A DNA stretch of 48,444 nucleotides. It comes from an uncultured Treponema sp. Its GTDB lineage: Bacteria; Spirochaetota; Spirochaetia; Treponematales; Treponemataceae. Location: NCBI GenBank assembly GCA_946407195.1, contig CAMJNC010000003.1:1-48444 (forward strand), read 5' to 3'. The translations under genes and the position numbers were made by a program. Shown here in pieces: positions 10,097 through 30,531 of this stretch (positions within the stretch are counted from its first letter, which is position 1; each line of letters opens with the position of its first letter). The notes under the pieces were generated by a model. It had not been told where the DNA came from and made no database searches. It worked only from the letters and a program-made list of their open reading frames with translations.

Positions 10097-10113
10097 ACGA
10101 AAAGGAGTAATGA

Positions 10114-10863
10114 GTGTTAGAGCTTAAGAACATTGTAAAATCGTTTGGTAATACAAAAATACTGGATGATATTTCCATTTCAATTCAGAATTCAGAAATT
10201 GTTTCTATACTTGGTGCTTCGGGAAGCGGTAAGACAACTCTGCTTAATCTCATTCTTGGTATTTATAAAACTGATTCGGGAAGTATAGTTTTTGATGATA
10301 ATGATATAACAAATACTCCAATGCAGGAACGTGGCTTTAATATTGTTTTTCAGGATTACGCTTTGTTCCCAAATTTAAGTGCCTATAAAAACATTACCTA
10401 TGGACTAAGAAACTTTAAGGACCGTTCAACAAAAGAAGAGGTAGACTCACTTATTGAACTTTTGGACTTAAAGGAACATCTTGATAAAAAAATTGATATG
10501 CTCTCTGGCGGACAAAAGCAGCGTGTAGCACTTGCAAGAACAATGGTTATGAAGCCAAAAATTCTTTTACTGGATGAACCTCTTTCTGCACTCGACGGAG
10601 TAATTAAGGAATCAATTAAAGAAAAGATTGTTACAATTGCAAAGGATTATAAGCTTACCACAATCATTGTAACACATGATCCGGAAGAAGCTCTTACAAT
10701 CAGCGACAAGGTTCTTATTATTAACAAGGGTAAGATTGAACAGTTTGCTACACCAGAAACTATAATTAATGAACCTGCAAGTGACTTTGTAGAAAGTTTT
10801 ATTCTGCAGCAGCTTAAAATCAAAAAAGATAATATTTATAAGCTTTTTAAGACGGGGAAATAA
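10114..10863 (+). CDS. ABC importer ATPase (FbpC/PhnT-like)
   Basis: A 249-residue ATP-binding subunit. Walker A is GASGSGKTT (near residue 35), the Q-loop lies in VFQDYALFPNLS, the signature is LSGGQKQRVALARTM, Walker B is ILLLDEPLSALD and the H-loop is IIVTHDPEEAL. The sequence resembles ATPases of the iron/thiamine/2-aminoethylphosphonate importer group, but lacks the long C-terminal regulatory domain of some members. The start is GTG at 10114, preceded by AAGGAG at a good distance; an ATG at 10110 is out of frame. It is 17 bp from the HTH-nucleotidyltransferase, and its stop overlaps or abuts the permease start, so all are one operon. Confidence 0.85.
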   Translation: MLELKNIVKSFGNTKILDDISISIQNSEIVSILGASGSGKTTLLNLILGIYKTDSGSIVFDDNDITNTPMQERGFNIVFQDYALFPNLSAYKNITYGLRNFKDRSTKEEVDSLIELLDLKEHLDKKIDMLSGGQKQRVALARTMVMKPKILLLDEPLSALDGVIKESIKEKIVTIAKDYKLTTIIVTHDPEEALTISDKVLIINKGKIEQFATPETIINEPASDFVESFILQQLKIKKDNIYKLFKTGK

Positions 10864-12470: not shown

Positions 12471-12474
12471 ATTA

Positions 12475-12492
12475 TGCAAATGAATATTTGCA
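12475..12492 (+). other. mRNA hairpin between permease and binding-protein genes
   Basis: TGCAAAT (12475-12481), a four-base loop and ATTTGCA (12486-12492) form a perfect 7-bp stem just before the AGGAG of the binding-protein gene. No T-run follows, so it is not a terminator. Such intercistronic stems often stabilise the mRNA segment for the more abundant binding protein; that role is inferred. Confidence 0.45.
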
Positions 12493-12504
12493 CAGGAGAT
12501 TATA

Positions 12505-13479
12505 ATGAAAAAGATTTTTGCAGCAGCACTTGCAGTAAGCATGATTACATTGTTTGCAGGCTGTTCAAAACAGGACAATGCAGAAAGAAAGGTTATTATC
12601 TATTCTAATGCAGATGACGAAGCAGTAGTTTCTGTAAAAAAGGCTCTGGATTCAAATGGTTATGAAGGAAAATACATTTTCCAGTCATTCGGAACAAGCG
12701 AGCTTGGTGGAAAACTTTTTGCAGAGGGTAATGATATTGAAGCTGACCTTATTACAATGAGTTCTTTCTATATTGAAAGTACACAGGCTCAGAATAATAT
12801 GTATAAGCCTCTTGAATTTGAAGCTAAAAAGGTTATTAATACTCCAAATTATTATACACCTCTGCTTGCAATTCAGGGAGCTGTAATTGTTAATACAAAG
12901 CTTCTTGAAGAAAAGGGGCTTCCATATCCAAAGAGCATTAAGGATATGGGAAATGAAATGTATAAGGATTTAGTAAGCGTCGTTGATCCAATGGGAAGTA
13001 CAACTGCATGGCTTATGGTTCAGGCTCTTATTGCTTCTTATGGAGAAGATGGAACAAAGGCTGCACTTAAGGGTATCTATAATAATGCAGGACCTCATCT
13101 TGAACTTTCAGGTTCTGGTCCTATTAAAAAGATTCGTGCTGGTGAAGTTGCTGTAGGCTTTGGTCTAAGACATCAGGCAGTAAGAGATAAGAAAAACGGA
13201 CTTCCAATTGATTTTGTAGATCCAGTTGAAGGAAACTTTGCTCTTACAGAATCTGTAGCTGTAATCAATAAGAAGAAGTATAACCCACTAGCTATGAAAA
13301 TGGCAGAATGCATTATTAAGAATGCACGTGCTGATATTATCAAAGATTATCCTGTAGTTATTTACGAAGGTGAAACTGTAGATGCTGAAAATCAGGCTTC
13401 TAACAGCAAGGTATTTGATCAGCCGCTTACAACTCAGCTTTTGAAGGCTCATCAGGAATTGAGCGAAAGCTGTAAATAA
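12505..13479 (+). CDS. ABC importer substrate-binding lipoprotein (AEP/iron-type)
   Basis: A 324-residue periplasmic binding protein anchored as a lipoprotein: the signal peptide ends in the lipobox LFAG-C, with Cys at residue 20. The mature part is a type-II periplasmic binding fold of the family-1 group that includes FbpA, ThiB and PhnS-like proteins (KVIIYSNADDEAVV at the start of the fold, LGGKLFAEGNDIEADLI, SGSGPIKKIRAGEVAVGFG, PVEGNFALTESVAVI). I do not see the C-terminal double tyrosine that marks ferric-binding members. With the nucleotidyltransferase upstream, 2-aminoethylphosphonate or a similar small phosphonate is the most economical ligand, but this is inference. It is the last gene before a bidirectional terminator. 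Confidence 0.75.
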   Translation: MKKIFAAALAVSMITLFAGCSKQDNAERKVIIYSNADDEAVVSVKKALDSNGYEGKYIFQSFGTSELGGKLFAEGNDIEADLITMSSFYIESTQAQNNMYKPLEFEAKKVINTPNYYTPLLAIQGAVIVNTKLLEEKGLPYPKSIKDMGNEMYKDLVSVVDPMGSTTAWLMVQALIASYGEDGTKAALKGIYNNAGPHLELSGSGPIKKIRAGEVAVGFGLRHQAVRDKKNGLPIDFVDPVEGNFALTESVAVINKKKYNPLAMKMAECIIKNARADIIKDYPVVIYEGETVDAENQASNSKVFDQPLTTQLLKAHQELSESCK

Positions 13480-13554: not shown

Positions 13555-16544
<2,990 letters not shown>

Positions 16545-16570
16545 AATAGTTTCTCCAATCTATAAGAATC

Positions 16571-16660
16571 GCAGGCATAGCCTGCTCTGAGCCGTTTTTT
16601 CGATAATCCTAAAACGACCCGCTGCCGCAGCTCGTTTTTTAACGGATTTTCGATTTTAGG
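16571..16660. repeat. Intergenic palindromes between pepM and ppd
   Basis: GCAGGC-ATA-GCCTGC (16571-16585) is a tight 6-bp hairpin. CCTAAAACGA (16608-16617) pairs partly with TCGTTTT (16632-16638) around a CTGC/GCAG core, and TTTTAGG recurs at 16654-16660. The stretch is more GC-rich than its surroundings and could be an mRNA processing or attenuation structure inside the operon, or a short interspersed palindromic element. No U-tract in the operon direction makes it a clear terminator. Confidence 0.5.
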
Positions 16661-16661
16661 C

Positions 16662-17963
16662 TTACTTTGTCCCCGGAATTAATTCCAAAATTTCTTTTAT
16701 TGGCATACAGATATCGTTTACTTCTAAGCTGCGTTCAGCTTCGAGAATTGTTTCTGCACATTTTTTCATAGCAGGGTAACTTGCTCTAAGCATATGGTTT
16801 GCATAAATAATAATGTTTGCTCCCCATTCAGCAAGCTCTTTTTCTGTAAACTGATTATAGGTAGTCGGAACAAGAACAATAGGAATATTTGCATATTCTT
16901 TACGGAAGCGTCCGCAGAACTCTTTGATGTCTTCGCCGCTCTTGTCTTTTGAATGAATCATAATTCCATCAGCTCCAGCTTTAACTGCGGCAAAGGCTTT
17001 GGTGAGCGCTTCGTCCACGCTATAGCCTGCAATGATTTCTTCAATACGGGCAATAATCATAAAGTCTTTAGTAATCTGTGCACGCTTTCCTGCTGCAATC
17101 TTTTCACAGAATTCTTCTTCAGTAGCAAGTACCTGTTTAGCATCTGTTCCGAAAAGAGAGTTTTTCTTAAGACCTTTTTTGTCTTCAATAATTACTGCAC
17201 TAACACCATTACGTTCAAGTGTTCGTACTGTAAATACAAAGTGCTCTGGAATGTCTCCTGTATCACCATCATAAATAATTGGCTTTGTTGTACACTCAAG
17301 GATGTCTGTAAGAGACTGCATACGGGTAGTGAGGTCTACAGCTTCAATATCAGGCTTACCTTTGCTTGTAGAATCAGTGAGAGAAGAAGACCACATTCCA
17401 TCAAAGGTATGAAGGCCATCGTCTTTCATTACTTCTGCATGTTCTACAATAAGTCCGCTTAAACCGCTGTGAGCTTCCATAATGCGTACGATTGACTTTG
17501 CTGCAATTAGACGGCGGAGGGTAGCACGGCGAACATCCGGGGTAGTTCCTATTGTATTTGCATTTTCAACAAGAGCTGTAGAATTAATTCCCTTTGTGTA
17601 TGGAATCTCAACAATCTGACCGTTCCATTCCTTCATTACTTCAAAGCATTCTTCACGGATTTTGCTAAGATAATTTGTTTTCCAGTCGTCGCCGTGAATC
17701 ATAAAATCAGGTTTAAGGCGTTTAAGATTAGGAACATAGCTCCAGTCTTCCTGTGGAATAACCTTTGCTACACCCTTAATGTTTTCTACAACCTGACGGC
17801 GCTGCTCAAAGGTAAGGTAGGGAAGACGCTTATGAGACACAATTGCTGAATCTGTGAGAAGACCAACAACAAGCTCTCCGAGCTTTGCACCCTCATTTAT
17901 AATATTGATAATTCCAGGGTGGATAATATCACCAGTAAGTCCAAGATAAACAGTTTTAGGCAT
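16662..17963 (-). CDS. pepM: Phosphoenolpyruvate mutase with N-terminal cytidylyltransferase-like domain
   Basis: A 433-residue two-domain protein that starts phosphonate synthesis by making phosphonopyruvate from PEP. Residues ~140-433 are the isocitrate-lyase-like PEP mutase domain with the diagnostic EDK-x5-NS motif at 260-269 and IYDGDTG upstream. Residues 1-~130 are a TagD-like cytidylyltransferase fold (VYLGLTGDIIHPG, HGDDW, YTKGINSTAL). The HxGH catalytic motif reads HPGI at 15-18, so the second histidine is missing and this domain may no longer catalyse. The domain pair itself is common in bacterial PEP mutases. The ATG follows GGGGG by 7 bp. It is first of the operon pepM-ppd-pntC and 96 bp downstream of the TagF-like gene on the same strand. 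Confidence 0.92.
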   Translation of the reverse strand: MPKTVYLGLTGDIIHPGIINIINEGAKLGELVVGLLTDSAIVSHKRLPYLTFEQRRQVVENIKGVAKVIPQEDWSYVPNLKRLKPDFMIHGDDWKTNYLSKIREECFEVMKEWNGQIVEIPYTKGINSTALVENANTIGTTPDVRRATLRRLIAAKSIVRIMEAHSGLSGLIVEHAEVMKDDGLHTFDGMWSSSLTDSTSKGKPDIEAVDLTTRMQSLTDILECTTKPIIYDGDTGDIPEHFVFTVRTLERNGVSAVIIEDKKGLKKNSLFGTDAKQVLATEEEFCEKIAAGKRAQITKDFMIIARIEEIIAGYSVDEALTKAFAAVKAGADGIMIHSKDKSGEDIKEFCGRFRKEYANIPIVLVPTTYNQFTEKELAEWGANIIIYANHMLRASYPAMKKCAETILEAERSLEVNDICMPIKEILELIPGTK

Positions 17964-18059: not shown

Positions 18060-19307
18060 TTATTTATTCATATTTTGAACAGTTTGAATCATAAAGTCTG
18101 CAATATTTTTACCAGCTTCACCTTCATACATCCAGGCTTCTGCTTTAGCCTGAGCACGAGCTGCAGCAAGTTCTTTACTGTCACTCATATTCTGAATTAC
18201 TTCTTTTATATTTGCAAAATCCTTTTCGTTAAGCTGTTTGCCAAACTTTTCAAGGCTTGCATACTGCCAGAGCTTTTTATCTCCAAGGTCATAAGCATCG
18301 TAAGGACGTAAATCCATTCCGGCATTTACATACATAACTGGTTTATCACAAAGGAAGGTGTAGTCAAAAATAATACCGGAAAAATCTGAAATCATAATAT
18401 CAGCTTTTTTCAAACTGAATATATTCTGACGTTCATAATCCCATTCAATATTCTTGTTATTCTTGTAACGCTCTTCAAGACGTGCTAGCATATCTGCTTC
18501 AGATTTTTTTGACTGAGGGTGAGGGCGAACAATAATACGCCAGCCTGTTGCGGCAAGCGGATCCAGAAGCTTTTCACCGTACTTTTTAAGAATACCAACA
18601 TCACCCCAGCTTGGAGAAACAAGAACTGTAAAAGGGTGATTTTCTTCAGCTGGAATTTTAGCAATGTTTTCTTTGTAAACATCGAGGTAAGGGCAACCAA
18701 CAGTTACAAGCTGCTTTTGTGTAATTCCACGCTGCTGCTCAAGTGTGCGGATATCCTCTTTCTGATAATCACCTGTAAGAAGAACAGAATCAAAATAATC
18801 AAGACCAAACAAACGATAGGTAGTTGCATCGTTAGGCATATGAAGAACATGACTGTAATGCTTTACACGTTTACTTCTTTTAAGCTGATATACCTGAAGA
18901 CCTGGTGTGGTCATAAGAACAAAGCCTGCACTAAGCATATTAAGCTTTACAAAAGCCATGTTGCCTTCTCCAATAAATTCAGGCTTTACAAATTTATAAC
19001 CCATTTCAAAGCATGGATCTTTTTCTGCAGAAGTATAGTAAGTAAGCTCAATCTGTCTTTTTTCAAATTCATCACAAACCGGTTTAAAGGTATTCCAGTA
19101 TTGCATTCCTTCGTTATAAATTACGTATTGCTTAAAGTTAGTATCCTGAGAAACTGGAACTCCATTTTTCTTTGCTGTAAAAAGAAGCTTAATTTTAATC
19201 CATGCTGCTTTTCCTAAAAAGAAGAGTGTAGCGGCCGCACCAACTACAATAGAAAAAAGCATAGACCCCGTACCCGGGTCAATATAAAGAAGTAGAGAAT
19301 TAGTCAC
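18060..19307 (-). CDS. TagF/TagB-like CDP-glycerol glycerophosphotransferase family protein
   Basis: A 415-residue membrane-associated transferase. The start is GTG at 19307, with AGGAGG six bases upstream and an 8-base overlap with the end of the YidC-LtaS fusion gene; a longer frame to 19340 is less likely. The N-terminus has a membrane helix after YIDPGTGSML. The rest is the glycerophosphotransferase fold, with IIVRPHPQSKKSEADML and SDFSGIIFDYTFLCDKPVMYV, the family's most conserved blocks. Family members use CDP-glycerol (or CDP-ribitol) to build or prime teichoic-acid-like polymers. CMP-AEP is a close chemical analogue made by the next operon, so transfer of AEP to a surface glycan is an attractive but untested role. 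Translational coupling to the fusion protein implies a joint function. Confidence 0.8.
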   Translation of the reverse strand: MTNSLLLYIDPGTGSMLFSIVVGAAATLFFLGKAAWIKIKLLFTAKKNGVPVSQDTNFKQYVIYNEGMQYWNTFKPVCDEFEKRQIELTYYTSAEKDPCFEMGYKFVKPEFIGEGNMAFVKLNMLSAGFVLMTTPGLQVYQLKRSKRVKHYSHVLHMPNDATTYRLFGLDYFDSVLLTGDYQKEDIRTLEQQRGITQKQLVTVGCPYLDVYKENIAKIPAEENHPFTVLVSPSWGDVGILKKYGEKLLDPLAATGWRIIVRPHPQSKKSEADMLARLEERYKNNKNIEWDYERQNIFSLKKADIMISDFSGIIFDYTFLCDKPVMYVNAGMDLRPYDAYDLGDKKLWQYASLEKFGKQLNEKDFANIKEVIQNMSDSKELAAARAQAKAEAWMYEGEAGKNIADFMIQTVQNMNK

Positions 19308-22035
19308 GTGGAGCCTCCTGAGTCCAGTTTTTTGATTCAAATATATTTTCTTTTACATGCCACCATTCATTATCTTTTATAGAGAACTTATAGGTATCAT
19401 TATAAAGCGGTTGATGAGCATCACTAGAAGTAATATAGATTCCATCTTTTTTGTAAGAACTTGTATCAAGTGGAATTGATTTTCCGGTAAATGGATTTGT
19501 AAAATTATTTCCCAGGCCTTTAAGCAAAAGACTTGGAGTATCAACATTGGTCATAAAGGTATTGTCTGTTTTTAGACTGCCGCTTCTGTTAAAATCCTTG
19601 TACATTAAAAGACAGTGATAATGACCGCGGCCACTATATTTGTTGCCTGCAATTTTTCTGTCCAGTTCTGGATTTTCATCAAATTCTTTTTCAGTACTTA
19701 CACAACCATGGTCAGAAACAATTACAATTCTTGTATTGTCATATACATTATTTGCTTTAAGATAATCAAACCAGTCTGCAAGTTTTTTGAAGGTAGCCAT
19801 TTGAGTATGATAGGCATCATCGTGTGAATATTTTGAACTTCCAAAATCAGTTACTTCTTTTACCGGAATATAATCGGGTGCCTGGAAGAAAAATCTTTCG
19901 TGTGTTAATTCATTTGTAATGCTTGTATAAGTTCCATTTGAGGTTTCTTTTATGGAAGTAAGTTCTGGTAAGAAAGTTAATGGTGCATAATAATCAATTA
20001 ATGAAGACATGTCGTTAAGATTTTCATCAGATGACCAGTAAGTTCCTTTGTAATAAATAAATTCACGCATACAGATTGGAACTTCTCTAAAGAAAGCAAA
20101 ATAAAGCATGTTTCGTTTTATAAGCTTTTCAGTATTAGCAGCAAAGTCAGAGTCAGGATTAGCTTTATACCATAAAGCACTGTAAGGACCTTCTGTTTTA
20201 TATGCATTAATTTCAGGATAATTATCTGCGATGGAAGTATCGATAAAGGTATTATAATTAGCCCAGGAAGGATCTGTAATAATAGAGGAATATCCAAGCT
20301 GTTCATTGAAAATACGAGGAAGTAAAAGTAAAGCTTCATTATTTTTATCTACAAGTTTTTCAGAGTCCCGTTTATTCATTTCTGAGGGAATGTATTCATA
20401 GCCTCCGAACATTCCAGGCGCACCCATAATCGTATGCCCGTTAAAAGAAAGAACCTGAGGATAATTTACAAAACCGGAAAAGCTTTCATTAAAAGAAGAA
20501 TCTTCCTTAAACATTTCATCAATATAACGAGCCTGAGCTCTGTCTAGGAAAATGAGCATTACATTTTCTTTATTTTTTGAAAGATTAAATATAGGCTTTA
20601 CATCAGAAAGTTTTTTATGATCAGCATTTGCAATATAGTTTTTTGTTTCTTTATTGATGTAATTAAAGCTTGGAATTGATGTTACAATCAGAGCAACTGA
20701 AAGAAGTCCTGTAAGATAGATAGCAGGTTTGCCATCTTTAATTGCAGAAAATCCACATAAAATAGCAAACAAAAGAAGTGTAAATCCCAGATTCAAAAGA
20801 GATTTAAGCCCAAAGCTTGCAAAATTAGTAACATTCAGGAAGTTTAAGGTTTGAGAAATGTCTCCATAATTTCCCTGGAAAATAAATACATTTGCTACAG
20901 CACTTAAGGCCATAAAGGTCATAAAAAAAGAAATTAGAGTCTGAATACGTTTTCCAAAAAGGAAATATATACAGCATGTCCAGAAAATAAAAATACCAAA
21001 AGCCTGCACAAAAATATTTTTGAAAATAAAGTACGGAGTAAGGTTATTGCCTATTCCACAGAATTCAGCAGGTGAAGAACCAATAAGTGCAGACGGGATA
21101 GAAATTGAAGTAATTACAAGAAGCAATATACATGAAGAAAAGAAAAGTGAAGTTCTTGCTTTTGAATAATTTACAAAGAAAGAAAGTCTTGTGTTTAATA
21201 ATTTAGCAAAACCTTTTACATATAAAGGAATAGCAAAAATCAGGATAAAGAAAGCCATTGCAATAATTTTATTTGCCAGCTTTGTTTGATATATAAAAAG
21301 TATAAAGATAGAACCTGCAGCACAGCAAGCTGCGGCACATAAATACAAGGTTTTAGCAGGATTTTTTAATTTATAGAATACATTTTTAACAAGACTAAAT
21401 ACATTATTCATTGTCCAGTAAAGAACAAGACCAGCAGGACTTGTATAAAGAAGAACAAGAAAGATTAAAGCCATGCCATAAATCTGGATTTTTTCTTTGA
21501 TTGGAAAACCCTTTGTATAAATAGCTCCGGCAATGATATTTATAATAGTCATCGCAATTGGCAAAATGTTTATTGGAAAAGAACCAATTTTGAAAATGGC
21601 ATCCTGCTGTCCCATGTCGCGGATAAAAAGAAAAGACTGTCCCTGAAGAGCAGGAAGCTTAGAAAGGCAAGAGTAAGCCGCCATAAAAAATGGAATTTGA
21701 ATTAAAAGACCAAAGCTGGAACGTAATGCCATCATAGGGTGATAATGATTCTGTCTGTAAAAGGTAGAAAGAATCATATACTGCTCATCGCCTTTAAAGG
21801 TTTGTTTAATGCGGTCTACGCCAGGCTTAAGCTTTTTCTGTGTATCACGTTCAATCTGCTGCCATTTTTCTGCAACAATATAGAGAGGAAGACAGAAGAG
21901 AGTAACAGTAAGACTTACTCCAATAACGGAGATTCCTGTATTATCAAAAATTTTATCAAATAATTTAAATGAAATTTCTATTATCTGAACTAAGGGATAC
22001 AAAATAACAGTGTATAAAATATTTGCAAAAGACAT
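19300..22035 (-). CDS. Fusion of a YidC/Oxa1-like domain with an LtaS/sulfatase-type transferase domain (copy 1)
   Basis: A 911-residue membrane protein. Residues ~1-225 are clearly YidC/Oxa1-like: five helices and an intact cytoplasmic hairpin (KLKPGVDRIKQTFKGDEQY, LLIQIPFFMAAYS, SPAGLVLYWTMNNVFSL). About seven more helices follow to residue ~475. Residues ~490-870 are an alkaline-phosphatase-superfamily domain facing the periplasm: metal or catalytic candidates D498 (FLDRA), T535 (GHTIMGAPGMFGGY), H712 (ELTHE) and D775-H776 (VSDHG), the pattern of LtaS and phosphoethanolamine transferases. The hydrophilic-groove arginine of YidC insertases is Thr45 here. The start follows AGGAG, which overlaps the stop of the upstream GT4 gene. 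A head-group transferase on a lipid-linked or surface glycan is inferred; a hydrolase is possible. Confidence 0.85.
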   Translation of the reverse strand: MSFANILYTVILYPLVQIIEISFKLFDKIFDNTGISVIGVSLTVTLFCLPLYIVAEKWQQIERDTQKKLKPGVDRIKQTFKGDEQYMILSTFYRQNHYHPMMALRSSFGLLIQIPFFMAAYSCLSKLPALQGQSFLFIRDMGQQDAIFKIGSFPINILPIAMTIINIIAGAIYTKGFPIKEKIQIYGMALIFLVLLYTSPAGLVLYWTMNNVFSLVKNVFYKLKNPAKTLYLCAAACCAAGSIFILFIYQTKLANKIIAMAFFILIFAIPLYVKGFAKLLNTRLSFFVNYSKARTSLFFSSCILLLVITSISIPSALIGSSPAEFCGIGNNLTPYFIFKNIFVQAFGIFIFWTCCIYFLFGKRIQTLISFFMTFMALSAVANVFIFQGNYGDISQTLNFLNVTNFASFGLKSLLNLGFTLLLFAILCGFSAIKDGKPAIYLTGLLSVALIVTSIPSFNYINKETKNYIANADHKKLSDVKPIFNLSKNKENVMLIFLDRAQARYIDEMFKEDSSFNESFSGFVNYPQVLSFNGHTIMGAPGMFGGYEYIPSEMNKRDSEKLVDKNNEALLLLPRIFNEQLGYSSIITDPSWANYNTFIDTSIADNYPEINAYKTEGPYSALWYKANPDSDFAANTEKLIKRNMLYFAFFREVPICMREFIYYKGTYWSSDENLNDMSSLIDYYAPLTFLPELTSIKETSNGTYTSITNELTHERFFFQAPDYIPVKEVTDFGSSKYSHDDAYHTQMATFKKLADWFDYLKANNVYDNTRIVIVSDHGCVSTEKEFDENPELDRKIAGNKYSGRGHYHCLLMYKDFNRSGSLKTDNTFMTNVDTPSLLLKGLGNNFTNPFTGKSIPLDTSSYKKDGIYITSSDAHQPLYNDTYKFSIKDNEWWHVKENIFESKNWTQEAPRD

Positions 22036-22051
22036 ATTTATTTATTTGCTC

Positions 22052-23125
22052 CTAGTACTGTTGTTTAAGAATATTATATAACTTTTGAGCTGCTTTGTCA
22101 TAAGTATATTCTTTTAACACAGATTCTGCAGTCTGGTTACAATTTGCAGGCAGGGTAGAAAGCAGTTGATTTAAGTCACAATCTGTATTATATGGATCAA
22201 TATAAGCTGCTGAACTCTTATAAATTTCAGGCAGACTTGCAGATTTTCCAACAATAATTTTAGCTCCAACGCTAAGTGCTTCAAGAGGCGGAATACCAAA
22301 GCCTTCATAATAACTTGGAAAAACAAAGGCCTTACAGTTTTTCATAAGCCATTTTACCTGAGAGTCAGTTACATAGCCTAGCAATTTGACATTTGGAAGA
22401 GTTTGTAAGGTTGCAATATCATTACTTACAAAACCAGAAATAACTTTACCACTTATTGCAAACTTTTCTTCAGGGTGGGCAGCTGCATATTTTGCAATCC
22501 AGCCAAGATTCTTTCTTTTTTGAAGGGAACCAAGAGTGAAATAAAAAGTACCTGGAGTTAGAAAATCTGTGTCTGCTTCGACAGGCTCCAAGCTTATATC
22601 AGTAAAATGCTCCCAGCCGTTTGGAATTACTTCTATGCGCTTGTCTGGGACTTTATAGACTTTCTTAATCTGCTCGCGAGAAAAGTCGGATACGGTAAGT
22701 ACTTTTATTGCATGACGGGTAATATTTCTGTAATTAAAGCAGCTGTATAAACGTACAAGTTTTTCTTTTTTAGAAATAAAATCCTGAGGATATTGCTTTG
22801 CATAAATATCGTGAATAAAACTGATTCCACAAGAACGTCCAAGCGGTGCAGTGTTACTAAAGTTAATTGCCCTTGCTCCAAGGCGTCTGCACCAGAAAGC
22901 AAACTGAAATAAATCCCAAAGAGGAAAGCTTTTTAGTGGCTTATCACTATAAATCAATTTGATGTTTTTATATTCTGGTATAGTCTTCGCGTTTGAAGGA
23001 ATAATTATTCTTACATCATCTTCAGTCTGTAAAAGCAGATCCAGCCGCTTACAGGTTTCAAAAGCAAAGCGTTCAATTCCAGTGAGGTTGCGGCATAGAA
23101 AGTTGGGGTTAATCAGGTAAGTCAT
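22052..23125 (-). CDS. GT4-family glycosyltransferase
   Basis: A 357-residue GT-B glycosyltransferase. MTYLINPNFLCRNLTGIERFAFE contains the Gly-rich acceptor loop. FIHDIYAK and VLTVSDFSREQIKKVY are typical of GT4 enzymes of O-antigen clusters. The donor domain shows FYFTLGSLQKRKNLGWIAKY, VKLLGYVTDSQVKWLMKN and VFPSYYEGFGIPPLEALSVG, including the EGFGIPPLEA glutamates. No membrane helix. It heads the minus-strand unit GT4 / YidC-LtaS / TagF-like and may include pepM onward by read-through. The ATG is 7 bases after a TATAAT at 23138-23133, with no Shine-Dalgarno, another leaderless candidate; the -35 (TTTCAA) is weak. The donor sugar is not assignable. Confidence 0.83.
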   Translation of the reverse strand: MTYLINPNFLCRNLTGIERFAFETCKRLDLLLQTEDDVRIIIPSNAKTIPEYKNIKLIYSDKPLKSFPLWDLFQFAFWCRRLGARAINFSNTAPLGRSCGISFIHDIYAKQYPQDFISKKEKLVRLYSCFNYRNITRHAIKVLTVSDFSREQIKKVYKVPDKRIEVIPNGWEHFTDISLEPVEADTDFLTPGTFYFTLGSLQKRKNLGWIAKYAAAHPEEKFAISGKVISGFVSNDIATLQTLPNVKLLGYVTDSQVKWLMKNCKAFVFPSYYEGFGIPPLEALSVGAKIIVGKSASLPEIYKSSAAYIDPYNTDCDLNQLLSTLPANCNQTAESVLKEYTYDKAAQKLYNILKQQY

Positions 23126-23132
23126 TAAAACA

Positions 23133-23177
23133 ATTATAATTAATTAACTTGAAAATTGAAATGTATTTTGTTAGTAT
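23133..23177. promoter_or_regulatory. Divergent promoters between the GT4 gene and YidC-LtaS copy 2
   Basis: Minus strand: TATAAT at 23138-23133, 7 bases from the GT4 start codon. Plus strand: TTGAAA (23149-23154), 17 bp, TAGTAT (23172-23177), then an 18-base gap including eight T residues, AAGG and the ATG at 23196. The plus-strand mRNA would have a leader of about 12 bases. Confidence 0.4.
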
Positions 23178-23195
23178 TTTTTTTAAGGTATAAAA

Positions 23196-25874
23196 ATGAA
23201 TATAGGCTCTGTTTTTTATAATATTTTTATAAATCCAATTGTAAATATTTTAGAAGTTTGTTTTAAAATAATCCAGGAAATCACAGATAGTAATGGAATT
23301 GCTATTATTGGTTTAAGTTTAGTTGTTTCAATCTGCTGTTTACCATTGTATATGGTTGCAGAAGCTTTGCAGGAAGAAGAAAGAAATATCCAGAAAAAAC
23401 TTAAAAATGGTGTAGATAGAATTAAGCAGACATTTAAAGGTGATGAACAGTATATGATTCTTACCACTTACTACAAACAGAATCATTATCACCCCTTAAT
23501 GGCCTTACGTTCTTCATATAGTCTGTTAATCCAGATACCATTTTTCATTGCAGCTTATACTTTTCTTTCTCACTTAAAGCCACTGAATGAATCTTCTTTT
23601 CTATTCATACAAAATCTTGGAGCTCCAGATCATTTATTTAAAATCAAAAGTTTTTACATAAATATATTACCTGTAACAATGACCTTAATTAATTGTGTTT
23701 CAGGAATAATATATTCAAAAGGTCATAATAAAAGTGAGAAAATTCAGATATTTGTTTCTGCTTTGTTATTTCTTGTACTTCTTTATAATTCACCGGCAGG
23801 ATTAGTTGTTTACTGGACAATGAATAATGTTTTCAGTCTTGTAAAAAATGTTTTTTATAAAATTAAAAATCCTAAAAAAGTAATTAATATTTTATTATTA
23901 ATAATCGGTAGTTGTGCTATTCTTTTGGGATTTATTATTGATACTAAAACCATTTATAAATTATTCATTATTCTTATTGGACTTTTCCTAATCTTGTCTA
24001 AATATATTTTAATTCTTGGAAATAATATTTCTAATAAGTTTATACAGGGAATAGGTATTGATAAGAAAAACAGATTCAGACTATTTATTATTTCTTCTGC
24101 AATACTAACAATTATCTGCGGCTTATTTATTCCTTCTAATCTTATTGAATCTGAAGTTGAACTATATTGTTACATAGATAAATATTCCTCTCCCTTTCCA
24201 TTCATTATAATTACTTTCTTAAAAGCCCTTGGATATTTTGGAGTATGGTTTGGATTGTTTTATTCTTTATGCTCAGAACGTGGAAAAAATAATTTTACAT
24301 TCCTTATGTTCTTATTATGCATTATTTCAATAGTTAATGTATTTTTCTTTTCGGGAAGTTATGGTCCTATACATCCATATTTAGTATTTATGCAGTCTCC
24401 AGATTTTATGGATGCAAAGAAATTCTTACTGATGTCTACAATAACAGTATTTGTTATTTCAATTATTATTCTTTTACTATTTACAAAAGTTAAAAAATAT
24501 TTATTTCCAGTATGTGGAATCATTGTAGTATCTCTAAGTGTAATCACAATAAAAAATCTTGCAATTATAAAGAGTTCTTCAGATAAAATCCCGGCTCCAG
24601 AAGTTACAGATAATATTGAACCTGTATATCATTTATCAAAAACAGGTAAAAATGTAATTGTTGTTATGCAGGATAGAGCAATACCTTCATATTTCCAGGA
24701 ATTTCTGGAAGAACGCCCTGATTTATATGAAGCCTATAAAGGATTTAAATTCTATCCTAACTGTGTTTCTTTTGGTAACTGTACAATGATTGGTACACCG
24801 GGTATTTTTGGAGGATATGACTATACTCCTTATGAAACAAATTTGATGGTTGATAAAACTATTAGAGAAAAAAGAAATGAAGCTATATTAACCATGCCGG
24901 TTTTATTTATGAATGAGGGCTATGACGTAACTGTTAGTGACATACCTTATGAAAACTTTTTGACATATCCGATAACTGATATGTATAAAGATTATCCTGA
25001 AATTCATAGAGAAAATGTAATAGGAAAATATACCAGCCTATGGTATAAAAATCATAATATTGAAAAGCTGGATATTTTAAGTTCAAGAATATCAAGAAAT
25101 TTCATATTTTTTAGTTTCTTTAAAATTTTACCACCAGTTTTACGACCTGTAATTTATCATAGAGAGTATTGGGTTAGTGATGAAAATTTTGATAACTTTG
25201 AATCATTTATCAACAGTTATTCTATCATTGATTATTTAGATAAAATTGTAAAAATCAATAATAATAAAAACGGAAGTTTCATATTAGCAAATAACGAAGC
25301 CGTACATGAACCAATCTTATTGCAGTATCCTCAATATGTTCCGCAAAAGAATGTTACTGATATTGGTAATTCTAAAAGAAATGAAGATGGTGAATATCAT
25401 GTAATGGCAGGTTGCTTCCTTAAATATTTAGATTTCTTTGATTACCTTAAAAAAGAAGGTGTATGGGATAATACAAAGATTATATTTGTATCAGATCATG
25501 GTTTTACTCATGAAACTGGAAATTATGATAATTCTAATCTTCCATTTTTAATTGATGATTATACTGCATTCTTAATGGTAAAAGATTTTAATGCTGATGA
25601 TGAACCTTTACAAATTGATTATACCTTTATGACAAATGCAGATACGCCATATCTTGCTTTGAAAAATATTATTGATAATCCAAAAAATCCATTTACTGGA
25701 AATTTATTAAAGGTAGAAGACAAAGCACCATTAATGAAATTAGATATGGGCCCTGCTGTAAGTACAAGAATCAGAAACGATACAAAGTATCCTGTTAAAG
25801 ATAATGAGTGGTGGGGCGTAAAAGAAAATATCTTTGAAAACAAAAACTGGTATCAATGGAAATTTGAAAAATAA
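23196..25874 (+). CDS. Fusion of a YidC/Oxa1-like domain with an LtaS/sulfatase-type transferase domain (copy 2)
   Basis: An 892-residue paralogue of the fusion encoded at 19300-22035, transcribed away from it. Residues ~1-225 are YidC-like and very close to copy 1 (VDRIKQTFKGDEQYMIL is shared without change; LLIQIPFF and SPAGLVVYWTMNNVFSL follow). About seven further helices lie at ~225-470. The catalytic domain keeps the same spacing of key residues: D493 (MQDRA), T530 (CTMIGTPGIFGGY), H704 (AVHEP), D767-H768 (VSDHG). The YidC groove arginine is Ser45. The middle membrane region and catalytic domain diverge from copy 1 much more than the YidC part. The gene is visibly richer in A+T than copy 1, suggesting separate acquisition. 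It ends at a strong terminator. Confidence 0.85.
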   Translation: MNIGSVFYNIFINPIVNILEVCFKIIQEITDSNGIAIIGLSLVVSICCLPLYMVAEALQEEERNIQKKLKNGVDRIKQTFKGDEQYMILTTYYKQNHYHPLMALRSSYSLLIQIPFFIAAYTFLSHLKPLNESSFLFIQNLGAPDHLFKIKSFYINILPVTMTLINCVSGIIYSKGHNKSEKIQIFVSALLFLVLLYNSPAGLVVYWTMNNVFSLVKNVFYKIKNPKKVINILLLIIGSCAILLGFIIDTKTIYKLFIILIGLFLILSKYILILGNNISNKFIQGIGIDKKNRFRLFIISSAILTIICGLFIPSNLIESEVELYCYIDKYSSPFPFIIITFLKALGYFGVWFGLFYSLCSERGKNNFTFLMFLLCIISIVNVFFFSGSYGPIHPYLVFMQSPDFMDAKKFLLMSTITVFVISIIILLLFTKVKKYLFPVCGIIVVSLSVITIKNLAIIKSSSDKIPAPEVTDNIEPVYHLSKTGKNVIVVMQDRAIPSYFQEFLEERPDLYEAYKGFKFYPNCVSFGNCTMIGTPGIFGGYDYTPYETNLMVDKTIREKRNEAILTMPVLFMNEGYDVTVSDIPYENFLTYPITDMYKDYPEIHRENVIGKYTSLWYKNHNIEKLDILSSRISRNFIFFSFFKILPPVLRPVIYHREYWVSDENFDNFESFINSYSIIDYLDKIVKINNNKNGSFILANNEAVHEPILLQYPQYVPQKNVTDIGNSKRNEDGEYHVMAGCFLKYLDFFDYLKKEGVWDNTKIIFVSDHGFTHETGNYDNSNLPFLIDDYTAFLMVKDFNADDEPLQIDYTFMTNADTPYLALKNIIDNPKNPFTGNLLKVEDKAPLMKLDMGPAVSTRIRNDTKYPVKDNEWWGVKENIFENKNWYQWKFEK

Positions 25875-25912: not shown

Positions 25913-27733
25913 TTAGAATGATTCTTTGAAGGCTTTGTGAGACGGATAATCATAAACTATATAGTATTCATCACTATAAACTTTTTTGCCTTTTTGAATT
26001 ATTGTTTTAGTTTCATTATTATTTAACTGTTCTTGAGAAACAAGAAGGAAGATATGTTCATTGTCATAATCGGACTTGTAATATCTTTCTGGGGTAAGCC
26101 ATTTATCATATTTATATTCATCGGTAAAAAATTCTTTACCATTTTCTTTTGTTCGATAAAGATTTCCAACTTCAACATTACCATTTGTAAGATATGAAAT
26201 AATATTTGCATTCCAGAAAGAAGAATAACCAAATTTGTAATTTTTCTCAAGATAATTGCAGACTTTATATAAAGATTCATTCTCATCTGTTATGAAATAG
26301 TGCTGCACTGTGGCAAAGGAAGATGTGAAAATAAGAATTGCCATTACAGTTCCAAATCCATATCTTTTTAAATTGGAAATATTTGTATTAGAAAGAATTA
26401 CAGCAAAGCAAGGGAAAATCATAATAAGAATAGGGTAGTAATATCTTTCAATAAGTTCTGTATGCAAATAAACAAAAGTATTAAAAAGGAAGCTTGAAAT
26501 AAAGAAAAGAAAAAGAATTCTCTGTGATTGGCAAAGCTTGATTTTTAAGGAAGAAATTAAAAGAAGAACAAAGCTTGTTATTATTATATAAGCCAGAATA
26601 TTTAGAGCTCCATTAGGAGTAAGAACTGCAATATTATCCTGATAGCCAAAGAAAGCAAGTAAAGAATGGAGAATATCTCTTAAAGAAATGTCTCCAAGTG
26701 TACAGAAACTAATTGTATTCCATTGTGAAAACTGAAATAAAGGCTGTAATACTATGTTATTACATACATAACCAGCACCAGATAAAAGAAGACCAATCAT
26801 ACTCAGTTTTATTGTATTTGTTTTGAGCCAGAATTCAGTAAAATTATTAATTTTACAATTTTCTTCTTTTTTAAGGCATTTGTCTGTTATCATTACAAGT
26901 GCTAGAGGAAATGTAAAAACCATTATATATCGGATTGATGAAAGTCCAGATAAGAAAGCCCAGACATAAAAGAGAATTGTATAAAATTTTTTATGCGAAA
27001 TCTTTTCGTCAGAAATCAGCTTTATAAAAGTTCCAACATAAATCAGATTGAATATTGTATGAGGAATATAATAAGTACCCCAGGCGCCAACATACCAGGA
27101 AATTACAGAGAATGGTAAAACTGAAAGAATTGAGATTAAATACTTAATCCAGAATTCCTGAATATTGATTTGATGTAAAACAAAATAAACAGCAAAGAAA
27201 AGAAAAATAAGTGAAATAATTGAAGTCCAGAGTTTTGCAGTATTCCAGCTTTTGGTAAATAAAAAGGCAGGTGCAGTAACCAGTTGAGTATTAAATAAAC
27301 GGATTTCTGTTGAATAATTCCAGTTACGAGGCCAAAATGTTTTGTTTAATACACATTCCTTTGCAAGAAGAATTTCAGATGCTAAATCTGAATCAACATG
27401 ATTTACACTTCTGGTAGCAATACAATAAAAGGTAATAAATAAAACAGAAAAAAAGAAAACAGAGAGAATTATTATTTTATTACGATTCTCAAATTTATAA
27501 AAAAACAATGCTGTTACAACTATAGACAAAAAAGAAGGAATTATAAAAAAAGATTCAATTGTAGGAAGCCATTTTGTTAAATCAAATGAACGATGAAAAA
27601 CTTTTTCTGATAAAATACTGTAAAAAAGATTTATGAAATCATGAGAAAAACAAATTAGAAGAGTTCCAATTAATAGACATAAAAATGAAAGGCTCATAAA
27701 AATATAGCTTTGCTTTTTTGTAAAATAATTCAT
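25913..27733 (-). CDS. GT-C-like polytopic membrane glycosyltransferase
   Basis: A 606-residue membrane protein with about 11-12 predicted helices and a C-terminal soluble tail of ~110 residues. The first large extracytoplasmic loop holds NHVDSDLASEILLAK, an acidic pair in the position typical of GT-C enzymes, followed by WPRNWNYSTEIRLFNTQL. GT-C proteins use polyprenyl-phosphate sugars as donors on the outer face of the membrane. The operon supplies exactly such a donor route: a DPM/GtrB-like GT2 and a two-gene EamA flippase. The ATG follows AAGGAG by 5 bp. The substrate is unknown. It is the last gene of the eight-gene minus-strand operon. Confidence 0.65.
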   Translation of the reverse strand: MNYFTKKQSYIFMSLSFLCLLIGTLLICFSHDFINLFYSILSEKVFHRSFDLTKWLPTIESFFIIPSFLSIVVTALFFYKFENRNKIIILSVFFFSVLFITFYCIATRSVNHVDSDLASEILLAKECVLNKTFWPRNWNYSTEIRLFNTQLVTAPAFLFTKSWNTAKLWTSIISLIFLFFAVYFVLHQINIQEFWIKYLISILSVLPFSVISWYVGAWGTYYIPHTIFNLIYVGTFIKLISDEKISHKKFYTILFYVWAFLSGLSSIRYIMVFTFPLALVMITDKCLKKEENCKINNFTEFWLKTNTIKLSMIGLLLSGAGYVCNNIVLQPLFQFSQWNTISFCTLGDISLRDILHSLLAFFGYQDNIAVLTPNGALNILAYIIITSFVLLLISSLKIKLCQSQRILFLFFISSFLFNTFVYLHTELIERYYYPILIMIFPCFAVILSNTNISNLKRYGFGTVMAILIFTSSFATVQHYFITDENESLYKVCNYLEKNYKFGYSSFWNANIISYLTNGNVEVGNLYRTKENGKEFFTDEYKYDKWLTPERYYKSDYDNEHIFLLVSQEQLNNNETKTIIQKGKKVYSDEYYIVYDYPSHKAFKESF

Positions 27734-27752
27734 AAAGGCTCCTTAAAATGTA

Positions 27753-28094
27753 TTATATTATATATATCAGAATTCCTGAAAGAATTAAAACAATAGATAG
27801 ATATTGTTTTAACGAAATTTTTTCTTTAAATATAATTCTGCTGAATACTATAACAAAAATATAGCTTGAAGTTTCAATTACCGGAACAAATGACAAAGGT
27901 ACAAATTTAAGAGCAATTAAATCTATTAGAACAGCGCAGAAAAATAAAAAATATGCACTAATAACTTTAATGTTTAAATATTCTCTAATCCAGCTTGTAT
28001 GTCTTTCTAAAGCAGATTTCTTTAATAATATTTGTGAAACAGCAGAGATAAATACTGAAAATAAAAGTAGGAGAACATATATCTTATTGTTCAT
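27753..28094 (-). CDS. Small EamA/SMR-type membrane protein (flippase subunit-like, ArnE/ArnF family)
   Basis: A 113-residue protein of four membrane helices, the size and hydropathy of ArnE/ArnF and small multidrug resistance proteins. It starts LLLFSVFISAVSQILLKKSAL, the conserved first helix with the Q-x-x-LK pattern of this family, and ends with two helices after FKEKISLKQYLSIVLILSGILI. The ATG overlaps the last 11 bases of the second small membrane gene, so the two are translationally coupled and probably form a heterodimer. Flipping of an undecaprenyl-phosphate amino sugar is inferred from the GT2 upstream and GT-C downstream. Confidence 0.7.
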   Translation of the reverse strand: MNNKIYVLLLLFSVFISAVSQILLKKSALERHTSWIREYLNIKVISAYFLFFCAVLIDLIALKFVPLSFVPVIETSSYIFVIVFSRIIFKEKISLKQYLSIVLILSGILIYII

Positions 28095-28455
28095 TTTTTT
28101 GATCCTCAGTATTAGTGGCAGATGAAAGAAGAATAATACCAGTAATTATTATTACAGCTCCGACTATTTTTTTTAATGTAATATCTTCCTGAAAAAATAG
28201 AAAACTCCAGAACATTCCCCAGACAATTGTTGAAGCTTTGTTAGCTGTAGCAAATGAAAGTGGAATTACTTTTAAAACCTGCTGCCATACTATTGCATAA
28301 ATAAACAGAATAAGTATGAGAATACAATAAAAAATGCAGAATTGAAGAGAAAGAAAATCATATTTTGCAGCAATCTTTCCAAGAACAGTGTAAAAACTGT
28401 AAATAAGAAAGCCTGCATGCATCAGCAAAAAAGAAGCAAGATTATTCTTTTTCAT
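28084..28455 (-). CDS. Small EamA/SMR-type membrane protein (partner of the adjacent gene)
   Basis: A 123-residue protein of four helices. FATANKASTIVWGMFWSFLFFQEDITLKKIVGAVIIITGIILL is the typical C-terminal half of EamA/DMT half-transporters, including the loop with the conserved acidic FQED. The start overlaps the end of the GtrB-like GT2 gene by 14 bases. Half-size transporters encoded as overlapping pairs are the ArnE/ArnF layout; a single-substrate lipid-linked sugar flippase is therefore favoured over a drug efflux pump. Confidence 0.7.
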   Translation of the reverse strand: MKKNNLASFLLMHAGFLIYSFYTVLGKIAAKYDFLSLQFCIFYCILILILFIYAIVWQQVLKVIPLSFATANKASTIVWGMFWSFLFFQEDITLKKIVGAVIIITGIILLSSATNTEDQKNEQ

Positions 28456-29392
28456 TTGTAGTATTTAATGTTTCCTTAATAATATATTTTGGCTGATTGT
28501 TTACAGTAAGGTAAACCTGGCCAAGGTAACGTCCAATAATTCCAAGTGAAACAAGAATTCCGCCACCTAAAACTAAAATAAGAATAACAAGGGTTGTCCA
28601 TCCAGTTACATCAGCATTACCCATGAAATATTCAACTGCATATATGATTGCAAGAATTAATCCTACAAAAGCAGTAATAAAACCTGTATAGGATGCAATA
28701 TTGAGAGGCATAGTAGAAAACCCAAAAAGCATTCTTAAAAATACTTTTATAGATTTTGCAAGATTATAATTACTTTTGCCAAGTTGGCGTTTGTGGTGTT
28801 CAATAGGAATTTGAGTAATATTTCTTGTCACTTGGAAAATAAGACCGTCAATATAAGGGAAAAGATTATTAAACTTAGTCATTTCCTGAACTACACCGCG
28901 GCATAAAATCTTAAAAGGGCTTAAATAAACTTCCTTCGGTTTTTGTAGAGCTATTTCACTAATTTTACCATTAAACCAGCTTCCAAGATTTTTCCAGAGC
29001 TTTTGTTTTTTTGTATCAAAATCAGCATAAACAACATCGTAGCCTTTCTGAGCTTCTTCATATAATTTTGGAATATCATATGGAGAATGCTGAAGGTCAT
29101 CATCCATTATTATTACCCAGTTTCCGCGGGTATAATTTAAGCCCGTAAGAATAGCACTATCCTGGCCACCGTTTTTTCTAAGATTAATTCCAATTACATT
29201 TTTATTTTGAATACATACTTTTTTAATTTCGTCCCAGCTTGAATCACGGCTGCAGTCATTTACCATAATCTGTTCATAAGAAAAATCTTTTAATGCATCA
29301 GCAATCTGTCGACTTATTTCTGCAACACATTCATGGCTGTTGTAAACGGGAATTACAATTGAAATTTCAGGGCTTGTATCTGTACTTTTCAT
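28442..29392 (-). CDS. GtrB/DPM-like polyprenyl-phosphate glycosyltransferase (GT2)
   Basis: A GT2 enzyme of about 316 residues. The catalytic domain begins ISIVIPVYNSHECVAEISRQ and continues with MVNDCSRDSSWDEIK and VIIMDDDLQHSPYDIPKL, which carries the DxD-type metal site. HHKRQLGKSNYNLAKSIKVF is the acceptor-side block of DPM synthases. Two C-terminal helices (SYTGFITAFVGLILAI and TLVILILVLGGGILVS) anchor it, as in GtrB and ArnC. It would move a sugar from a nucleotide donor to undecaprenyl phosphate. The start is uncertain: ATG at 29392 is 11 bases from GGAG, and an in-frame ATG at 29401 is only 2; both overlap or abut the wecE stop. Confidence 0.85.
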   Translation of the reverse strand: MKSTDTSPEISIVIPVYNSHECVAEISRQIADALKDFSYEQIMVNDCSRDSSWDEIKKVCIQNKNVIGINLRKNGGQDSAILTGLNYTRGNWVIIMDDDLQHSPYDIPKLYEEAQKGYDVVYADFDTKKQKLWKNLGSWFNGKISEIALQKPKEVYLSPFKILCRGVVQEMTKFNNLFPYIDGLIFQVTRNITQIPIEHHKRQLGKSNYNLAKSIKVFLRMLFGFSTMPLNIASYTGFITAFVGLILAIIYAVEYFMGNADVTGWTTLVILILVLGGGILVSLGIIGRYLGQVYLTVNNQPKYIIKETLNTTNEKE

Positions 29393-29394
29393 TT

Positions 29395-30531
29395 TTAGCA
29401 TTTCTCCAGAAATGTTTTTATACAATTAATTACTTTATCCAGGTCTATAGGGGCCATATTGAAATAAAGTGGTAATCTTACAAGGCGTTCGCTTTCCTTG
29501 GTTGTGAATTCATCATTTCCATCGAAACGTCCGTATTTAATTCCAGCAGGGGCAGAGTGTAAAGGAATATAATGGAAAACAGTAAGAATATCATTTTCTT
29601 TCATGTATGAAATAAAGGCAGAACGTTCTTTAATATCCTTAAATTTGATATAGAACATATGGGCATTATGAACACAATCAGATGGAATAATAGGTAAAGA
29701 AATCAATCCTTTATCTTCATAAGGCTTAAAGGCTTTATAATATGCATTCCAGATATCCATTCTTTCATTCTGAATTTTATCTGATTCTTCAAACTGAGCC
29801 CAAAGATATGCTGCATTTAGGTCACTTGGAAGATAGCTTGAACCATAATCTCGCCAGGTATATTTATCAATCTGCCCACGAATAAACTTACTGCGGTCAG
29901 TTCCTTTTTCTCGGATAATTTCTGCCCGTTCAAAATCTTCTGTATTAGTATTGATAATGATGGCTCCGCCTTCACCCATACTAAAATTTTTTGTTTCATG
30001 AAAAGAAAGACAACCAAAGTCACCAATAGTTCCCAGTTGTTTGCCTTTATAAGTAGAGCAAATTGCTTGTGCAGCATCTTCAACAACTTTAAGGTTATGT
30101 CGATGAGCAATATCTATAATTGTATCCATTTCGCATGCAATACCTGCATAATGAACTGGAACAATTACTTTTGTTTTATCTGTGATTGCAGCTTCAATTT
30201 TTTTCTCGTCTATGTTCATTGTATCAGGACGGATATCAACAAATACAAGTGTTGCACCGCGCTGAACAAAAGCATCAGCTGTAGAACAAAATGTATATGA
30301 GGGGAGAATAATTTCATCACCTGGTTTTATATCGCAAAGTACAGCTGCCATTTCAAGTGCAGAGGTACATGATGTAGTTAATAATACTTTATGACCATCA
30401 AGATGCTTTTCGAGCCATTCATTACAATTTTTTGTGAATTGCCCATCTCCGCAAATTTTATGAGAATCAATAGCCTGTTGAATATAAGTAATTTCTTTTC
30501 CTGTTACTGGTGGTACGTTAAAATGAATCAT
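29395..30531 (-). CDS. wecE: dTDP-4-amino-4,6-dideoxygalactose transaminase
   Basis: A 378-residue DegT/DnrJ/EryC1 aminotransferase strongly resembling enterobacterial WecE (RffA) along its whole length. MIHFNVPPVTGKEITYIQQA, DGQFTKNCNEWLE, LPSYTFCSTADAFV, FVDIRPDTMNIDE, VPVHYAGIACEMDTI and DKYTWRDYGSSYL are the family blocks. The PLP lysine is K181 in FHETKNF. WecE converts dTDP-4-keto-6-deoxyglucose to dTDP-Fuc4N with glutamate as amino donor. The dTDP precursor pathway is partly represented in the window by RmlD; RmlA and RmlB must lie elsewhere. AAAGGTGA precedes the ATG. It sits between ugd and the GtrB-like GT2, which may use its product. Confidence 0.9.
   Translation of the reverse strand: MIHFNVPPVTGKEITYIQQAIDSHKICGDGQFTKNCNEWLEKHLDGHKVLLTTSCTSALEMAAVLCDIKPGDEIILPSYTFCSTADAFVQRGATLVFVDIRPDTMNIDEKKIEAAITDKTKVIVPVHYAGIACEMDTIIDIAHRHNLKVVEDAAQAICSTYKGKQLGTIGDFGCLSFHETKNFSMGEGGAIIINTNTEDFERAEIIREKGTDRSKFIRGQIDKYTWRDYGSSYLPSDLNAAYLWAQFEESDKIQNERMDIWNAYYKAFKPYEDKGLISLPIIPSDCVHNAHMFYIKFKDIKERSAFISYMKENDILTVFHYIPLHSAPAGIKYGRFDGNDEFTTKESERLVRLPLYFNMAPIDLDKVINCIKTFLEKC

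Follow-up and report, generated by a model that had tools for sequence, protein, structure and literature searches.

LtaS, EptA and OpgB move phospho-alcohols from phosphatidylglycerol or phosphatidylethanolamine onto glycans at the outer face. In SpoIIIJ-type YidC, insertion is driven by a groove cation; the positively charged groove residue is R73 in B. halodurans and R366 in E. coli. Lipid scrambling in vitro has been shown for YidC and further Oxa1-family insertases, with simulations locating the path in the insertion groove (PMC10491306). In Treponema denticola, PntC-AepT (PDB 6PD1) makes CMP-2-aminoethylphosphonate (CMP-AEP) (PMC6697681). We analyzed a 48,444-nt stretch of contig CAMJNC010000003.1 (referred to here as the window) from a metagenome-assembled genome (MAG; 2.73 Mb, 75% complete) of an uncultured Treponema sp. 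Two genes in this window encode proteins in which a YidC-like module and an LtaS/sulfatase-type domain are fused in one polypeptide. They lie near a TagF-like transferase gene and a CMP-AEP (Pnt) cassette formed by PepM, Ppd and PntC-AepT (window 13555-17963). The coordinates are listed in Table 1.

The two fusion proteins share 41% amino acid (aa) sequence identity end to end, and the closest relative is found in an uncultured Spirochaetaceae MAG (80% identity). In both copies a YidC/Oxa1 module (residues 1-226) is followed by a seven-helix linker and an alkaline-phosphatase-superfamily domain. Pfam 60KD_IMP (PF02096) matches residues 34-221 in both copies with 77 bits (cut-off 35), and TIGR03592 (yidC_oxa1_cterm) scores 85-89 bits in the fusions (cut-off 84.3). 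Pfam Sulfatase (cut-off 25) is above threshold in copy 2 (29.6 bits) and below it in copy 1 (14.5 bits), where the fold and the catalytic residues agree despite the low score. The first-pass annotation, made from the sequence alone, had proposed two such fusions of 911 and 892 residues with seven extra helices between the domains. Both open reading frames are present, both domains are matched, and the linker is helical with about seven spans in the structure model. That annotation had also considered that a frameshift or assembly error might separate the domains. A chimera or frameshift artefact is ruled out by 144 distinct full-length homologs, which came from the loci of the contig scan described below and from further genome-search loci, and by fusions in closed genomes (T. 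ruminis CP031518, Breznakiella CP067089 and genome G258). The last is T. denticola, as its PntC is identical to PDB 6PD1 at 616 of 616 residues, and its fusion is intact (937 aa).

An AlphaFold2 model of the fusion, built on a 70-sequence alignment, gave a pLDDT of 90.1 and a pTM of 0.83. Residues 487-911 superpose on LtaS, LtaP, EptC, choline sulfatase and phosphonate monoester hydrolase with VIA Z values of 17-20 (17.7-18.0 for LtaS, LtaP and EptC), and the C-terminal domain also matches MCR. In the alignment of the 144 fusions, 83 columns are near-invariant. Those with catalytic residues are D498, T535, R657, H712, D775 and H776, each at least 99% invariant. The active-site residues picked out earlier (D498/T535/H712/D775-H776 in copy 1 and D493/T530/H704/D767-H768 in copy 2) were correctly chosen and align column for column between the copies. 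In profile alignments that cover short stretches only, T535 falls on the Thr in the GTAT segment of EptA and D775-H776 on the OpgB SDH. Around the nucleophile, the sequence is HTIMGAP in copy 1 and CTMIGTP in copy 2. A complete LtaS/EptA-type active site with Thr as the putative nucleophile, and the predicted clustering of its residues, are supported by the superposed folds and the aligned residues. A formylglycine sulfatase was considered and rejected: the C/S-x-P-x-R signature is absent and the nucleophile position is Thr in 144 of 144 sequences. If the YidC-like core ends in the cytosol, the seven linker helices that follow would place the catalytic domain in the periplasm.

The YidC module is the most conserved part of the fusion and therefore is not vestigial. 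Mean pairwise identity is 61.5% for this module, 40.3% for the catalytic domain and 29.3% for the linker. The corresponding dN/dS ratios, from copy 2 and its 80%-identical orthologue, are 0.05, 0.07 and 0.21 (rough values, with dS near saturation). Hhalign matched the module to E. coli YidC with a probability of 97.9% (E 5e-13) and aligned the groove cation R366 with T45 of the fusion. This position is T in 98, S in 39 and N in seven of the 144 fusions and is never positively charged, in agreement with the earlier suggestion that the YidC part is no ordinary insertase. Other polar residues of the groove region (S41, Q113, N166, N210) are retained. The fusion genomes keep a separate housekeeping YidC, and all seven housekeeping YidCs examined in related genomes carry Lys at the groove position. 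A lipid-moving role for the module would be reasonable by analogy, given the in vitro scrambling by Oxa1-family insertases.

A scan of genome contigs found 292 relatives of copy 2, from which 76 loci were kept. Of the 98 Treponematales genomes examined, 57 carry the fusion, mostly with several copies each, and full-length fusions also occur in further families of the spirochete phylum. As an architecture, the "new class" of the first-pass annotation is a fair term, but the family extends across the spirochetes and is not peculiar to this locus. No paper describing a YidC-LtaS-type fusion was found in the open-access literature, and the family is apparently undescribed. A TagF-like gene was found in 54 of 77 loci, 41 times immediately downstream of a fusion. 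Among the 98 genomes, 54 have both fusion and TagF-like genes, 40 have neither, three have the fusion alone and one has the TagF-like gene alone (p 1e-22); in that last genome (G011) the TagF-like gene is cut at the contig start. Fusion and TagF-like genes are near-obligate partners. PntC-AepT is present in 26 genomes, 25 of which carry the fusion (the exception is cut at a contig edge). The adjacency to TagF-like and CMP-AEP genes noticed in the window is conserved far beyond it. The co-occurrence search that the first-pass annotation had suggested came out strongly for the TagF-like gene, but a PntC-AepT match was found in only 25 of the 57 fusion genomes. A stretch of about 28 kb in T. denticola holds, all on one strand, the CMP-AEP genes, a Wzm/Wzt-type exporter, glycosyltransferases, the TagF-like gene (PF04464, 43.9 bits, cut-off 22.1) and the fusion. 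Locus L121 (genome G194), from another spirochete family, has a TagF-like gene, Ppd, two PepM-like genes, an AEP transaminase, a nucleotidyltransferase and a 997-aa fusion together, so the association of fusion, TagF-like and phosphonate genes is old or was transferred across the phylum.

An unfused arrangement outside the spirochetes was also considered and dropped, as the fusion was found in 0 of 197 and the TagF-like gene in 0 of 295 other Bacteroidota genomes. One contig labelled Dysgonomonadaceae (L081, JAIRPX010000110) carries a TagF-like gene and two fusions. Since neither gene was found in any other Bacteroidota tested, it is probably a mis-binned Treponema contig.

Three head-group-activation cassettes accompany these genes: PepM-Ppd-PntC/AepT, a nucleotidyltransferase-CobD-like pyridoxal phosphate (PLP) fusion, and a nucleotidyltransferase-HisC/CobD-like fusion. 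Trees of the TagF-like protein and of the fusion were compared on the same 27 operons, with the cassette labels shuffled 200 times; in tandem operons the fusion adjoining the TagF-like gene was taken as the partner. The TagF-like tree can be explained by two cassette changes, the lowest number possible (shuffled mean 12.7; reached in 0 of 200 shuffles), whereas the fusion tree requires 12 (shuffled mean 12.9; 77 of 200 as low). Trees of the fusion segments did not track the cassette either, with 16 changes for the YidC module, 15 for the linker and 13 for the catalytic domain (shuffled about 14.6). The median gaps are -1 and +1 bp in operons where both could be measured, so physical linkage does not explain the contrast. 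For example, L070 (AEP) and L088 (CobD type) have fusions 76% and TagF-like proteins 74% identical, while L070 and the window (both AEP) have fusions 43% and TagF-like proteins 86% identical. Overall, fusions 76-79% identical are found with different cassettes and same-cassette fusions can be as low as 43-46%. Compared with other neighbors (heptose genes, GT4, GT8, CotH), the fusion tree shows loose clustering at best. Since only the TagF-like tree tracks the cassette, the head group is most likely selected by the TagF-like protein, while the fusion most likely performs a task that does not depend on the head group. We regard the TagF-like protein as the best candidate for the role of head-group (CMP-AEP) transferase. 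In the orthologous locus of the 80%-identical relative (L034, 3075-12673), a CobD-type cassette stands in place of the phosphonate cassette of the window, a natural head-group swap.

We tentatively favor, at slightly less than even confidence, the reading that the fusion is a membrane-bound LtaS/EptA-type phospho-alcohol transferase with an on-board, YidC-derived lipid-handling (scramblase-like) module. In the cytosol, the cassette would make a nucleotide-activated head group, CMP-AEP in the case of the window, and the TagF-like partner, with its IDPGTGS hairpin as membrane anchor, would attach this group to a lipid-linked surface glycan. The neutral polar groove of the YidC module would move the phospholipid donor, or the spent lipid, across the inner membrane. 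The periplasmic domain, with D498, D775 and H776 as putative metal ligands, T535 as nucleophile, and H712, would form a phospho-threonine intermediate and transfer the phospho-alcohol of the lipid to the same glycolipid. GDP-heptose, glycosyltransferase, DltA-like and DltB-like genes, which are found near many fusion copies, fit a surface glycolipid resembling lipoteichoic acid (LTA) or lipooligosaccharide. Part of the literature on treponemes reports LTA-like and novel outer-membrane lipids, and oral treponemes are described there as having no lipopolysaccharide (LPS). Several points weigh against this reading. Ordinary phospholipid donors are assumed from characterised relatives, and the topology, donor, acceptor and lipid-moving role are all inferred. 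The linker (residues 225-478) modelled alone with a pLDDT of 91.8 but had no significant structural match in the PDB, so a likeness to the LtaS/EptA membrane domains would be a conjecture. E. coli YidC scrambles lipids with its Arg present, and loss of the cation alone is therefore no pointer to lipid transport. If the real partner in fusion-fusion-TagF tandems is the distal copy, the fusion might look more independent of the head group than it is. It is conceivable, though more a conjecture than an expectation, that an Oxa1/YidC fold was captured as a dedicated lipid scramblase in a head-group transferase, so that one polypeptide moves and then consumes its lipid substrate, defining an LTA-like spirochete surface-lipid pathway with the head group chosen by the TagF-like partner in the cytosol.

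The fusion might instead use as its donor an X-phospho(no)lipid made by the TagF-like protein in the inner leaflet, the YidC module flipping it and the catalytic domain moving X to a periplasmic glycan without discriminating X. The near-obligate pairing, the probable translational coupling of the two genes and the co-occurrence with PntC-AepT would suit such a division of labor. To judge by their CobD- or HisC-like PLP domains, the cassettes all seem to produce amino-alkyl phosph(on)ates, and one enzyme could accept them all. A donor-specific enzyme would nevertheless be expected to track the cassette somewhat, which was not seen, and PF04464 enzymes are known for acting on glycolipid acceptors, not for making simple lipid donors; we consider this route unlikely. 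The YidC module could also still be an insertase or a docking site for one particular membrane protein, with the TagF-like hairpin as the likeliest client, and so couple the cytosolic and periplasmic steps. Strict conservation of both the module and the partner hairpin LYIDPGTGSMLFS, together with one-to-one genome pairing, speaks for this proposal. The cation that drives SpoIIIJ-type insertion is never present in the fusions, however, the genomes keep their own housekeeping YidC, and the TagF-like and fusion trees are discordant, which is unexpected for a tight protein interface; the proposal is rather improbable.

That the fusion itself is the AEP-specific transferase, as the first-pass annotation had it, would agree with its place in an operon with CMP-AEP genes and with the proximity of these genes in T. 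denticola and deeper spirochete families. On the 27 operons, however, the TagF-like protein follows the cassette perfectly and the fusion not at all. PntC-AepT has no match in 32 of the 57 fusion genomes, and activated CMP-AEP is cytosolic while the catalytic domain is predicted to be periplasmic. This assignment is now very doubtful. The top Foldseek match, best over the whole length, is LapC/PbgA (YejM) (6xlp, E 1e-8), which would be compatible with a regulatory lipid sensor whose alkaline-phosphatase fold binds lipid and signals without catalysis. LapC has no DH metal pair and its segment reads AGRG, whereas the fusions keep DH, and their complete set of metal and nucleophile residues is at least 99% invariant across the 144 proteins. 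Multiple divergent copies per genome beside glycosyltransferases also argue against a sensor, and we give this idea hardly any credence.

In the window, the TagF-like gene has a probable GTG start at 19307 behind AGGAGG. As this start overlaps the stop of copy 1 by 8 nt, translation of the two genes is probably coupled. The N-terminal membrane hairpin of the TagF-like protein, LYIDPGTGSMLFS (window 19134-19307), is essentially 100% invariant over about 60 TagF-like proteins, which is unusual for a mere anchor. The GT4 glycosyltransferase gene between the two copies was not mentioned in the earlier annotation; a GT4 gene is directly upstream of 14 fusions in the family. The module beside copy 2 looks like a periplasmic glycan side-chain system. 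Within it (window 27753-28455), two overlapping half-size EamA reading frames (113 and 123 aa) beside the ArnC/PgfS-like GT2 resemble an ArnE/ArnF-like split flippase pair. Divergent from the pnt operon (window 9212-13479) are a helix-turn-helix plus nucleotidyltransferase gene and genes for an ABC ATPase, a permease and a solute-binding protein, a set that recurs near fusions in L076, L108 and L130 and possibly serves uptake and activation of a head-group precursor. In roughly ten loci, DltA-like and DltB-like (MBOAT) genes and a gene for a 450-aa protein without Pfam match lie beside fusions (e.g., L041:3881-5506, L063:7061-8614, L048:2403-3755), with scores below curated cut-offs. D-alanylation of the same surface polymer is possible.

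Table 1. Features of the window in and around the two fusion genes
Feature	Position	Strand	Remarks
Fusion copy 1	19300..22035	-	911 aa
Copy 1, YidC module	21358-22035	-	
Copy 1, seven-transmembrane linker	20596-21357	-	
Copy 1, alkaline-phosphatase-superfamily domain	19303-20595	-	
Fusion copy 2	23196..25874	+	892 aa
Copy 2, YidC module	23196-23873	+	
Copy 2, linker	23874-24620	+	
Copy 2, catalytic domain	24621-25871	+	
TagF-like transferase	18060..19307	-	PF04464, 37.1 bits (cut-off 22.1)
PepM fused to CTP_transf_like domain	16662..17963	-	phosphonate cassette
Ppd-like thiamine pyrophosphate enzyme (phosphonopyruvate decarboxylase)	15417..16544	-	phosphonate cassette
PntC-AepT	13555..15390	-	66% identical to T. 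denticola enzyme of PDB 6PD1
GT4 glycosyltransferase	22052..23125	-	between the two copies
Module beside copy 2	25913..29425	-	606-aa membrane protein without Pfam match, two EamA-type half-transporters, ArnC/PgfS-like GT2

The published account of the T. denticola Pnt pathway (PMC6697681) leaves the transferase step undescribed. In the T. denticola genome with the PntC of PDB 6PD1, the TagF-like and fusion genes lie about 20 kb downstream on the same strand, in one glycan cluster. In our comparison the TagF-like gene, not the fusion, tracks the cassette. These genes provide testable enzymes for the fate of CMP-AEP after PntC in this organism, where the tailoring transferase is undescribed, and candidates for the LTA-like or novel outer-membrane lipids of oral treponemes without LPS. 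Should the YidC part indeed move lipid, the insertase scrambling so far seen in vitro and in simulations would gain a physiological example with a gene dedicated to it.

Like LtaS (2w5q/4uor) and LtaP (4uop), the fusion combines a polytopic membrane segment with a predicted extracytoplasmic alkaline-phosphatase-superfamily domain and a putative Thr nucleophile (Z about 18 over some 300 residues, with just 9-15% identity). It differs in its N-terminal YidC module, in a linker without detectable kinship to the LtaS membrane domain, and in its occurrence in diderm spirochetes. EptA, EptC, MCR-1 and OpgB resemble it in catalytic fold and residues but have no YidC module, and they are not known to share a substrate with it. 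With YidC/Oxa1 insertases the module shares the PF02096 core of five transmembrane helices and the LIQxPFF and YW...NN motifs. Unlike them, it has no groove Arg/Lys, no P1 periplasmic domain and no long basic C-terminal tail, and it carries a three-residue insert before the third core helix segment as well as the fused transferase. The kinds of parts are already known, and what is new is the domain combination, the cation-less YidC module and the near-obligate pairing with a TagF-like gene.

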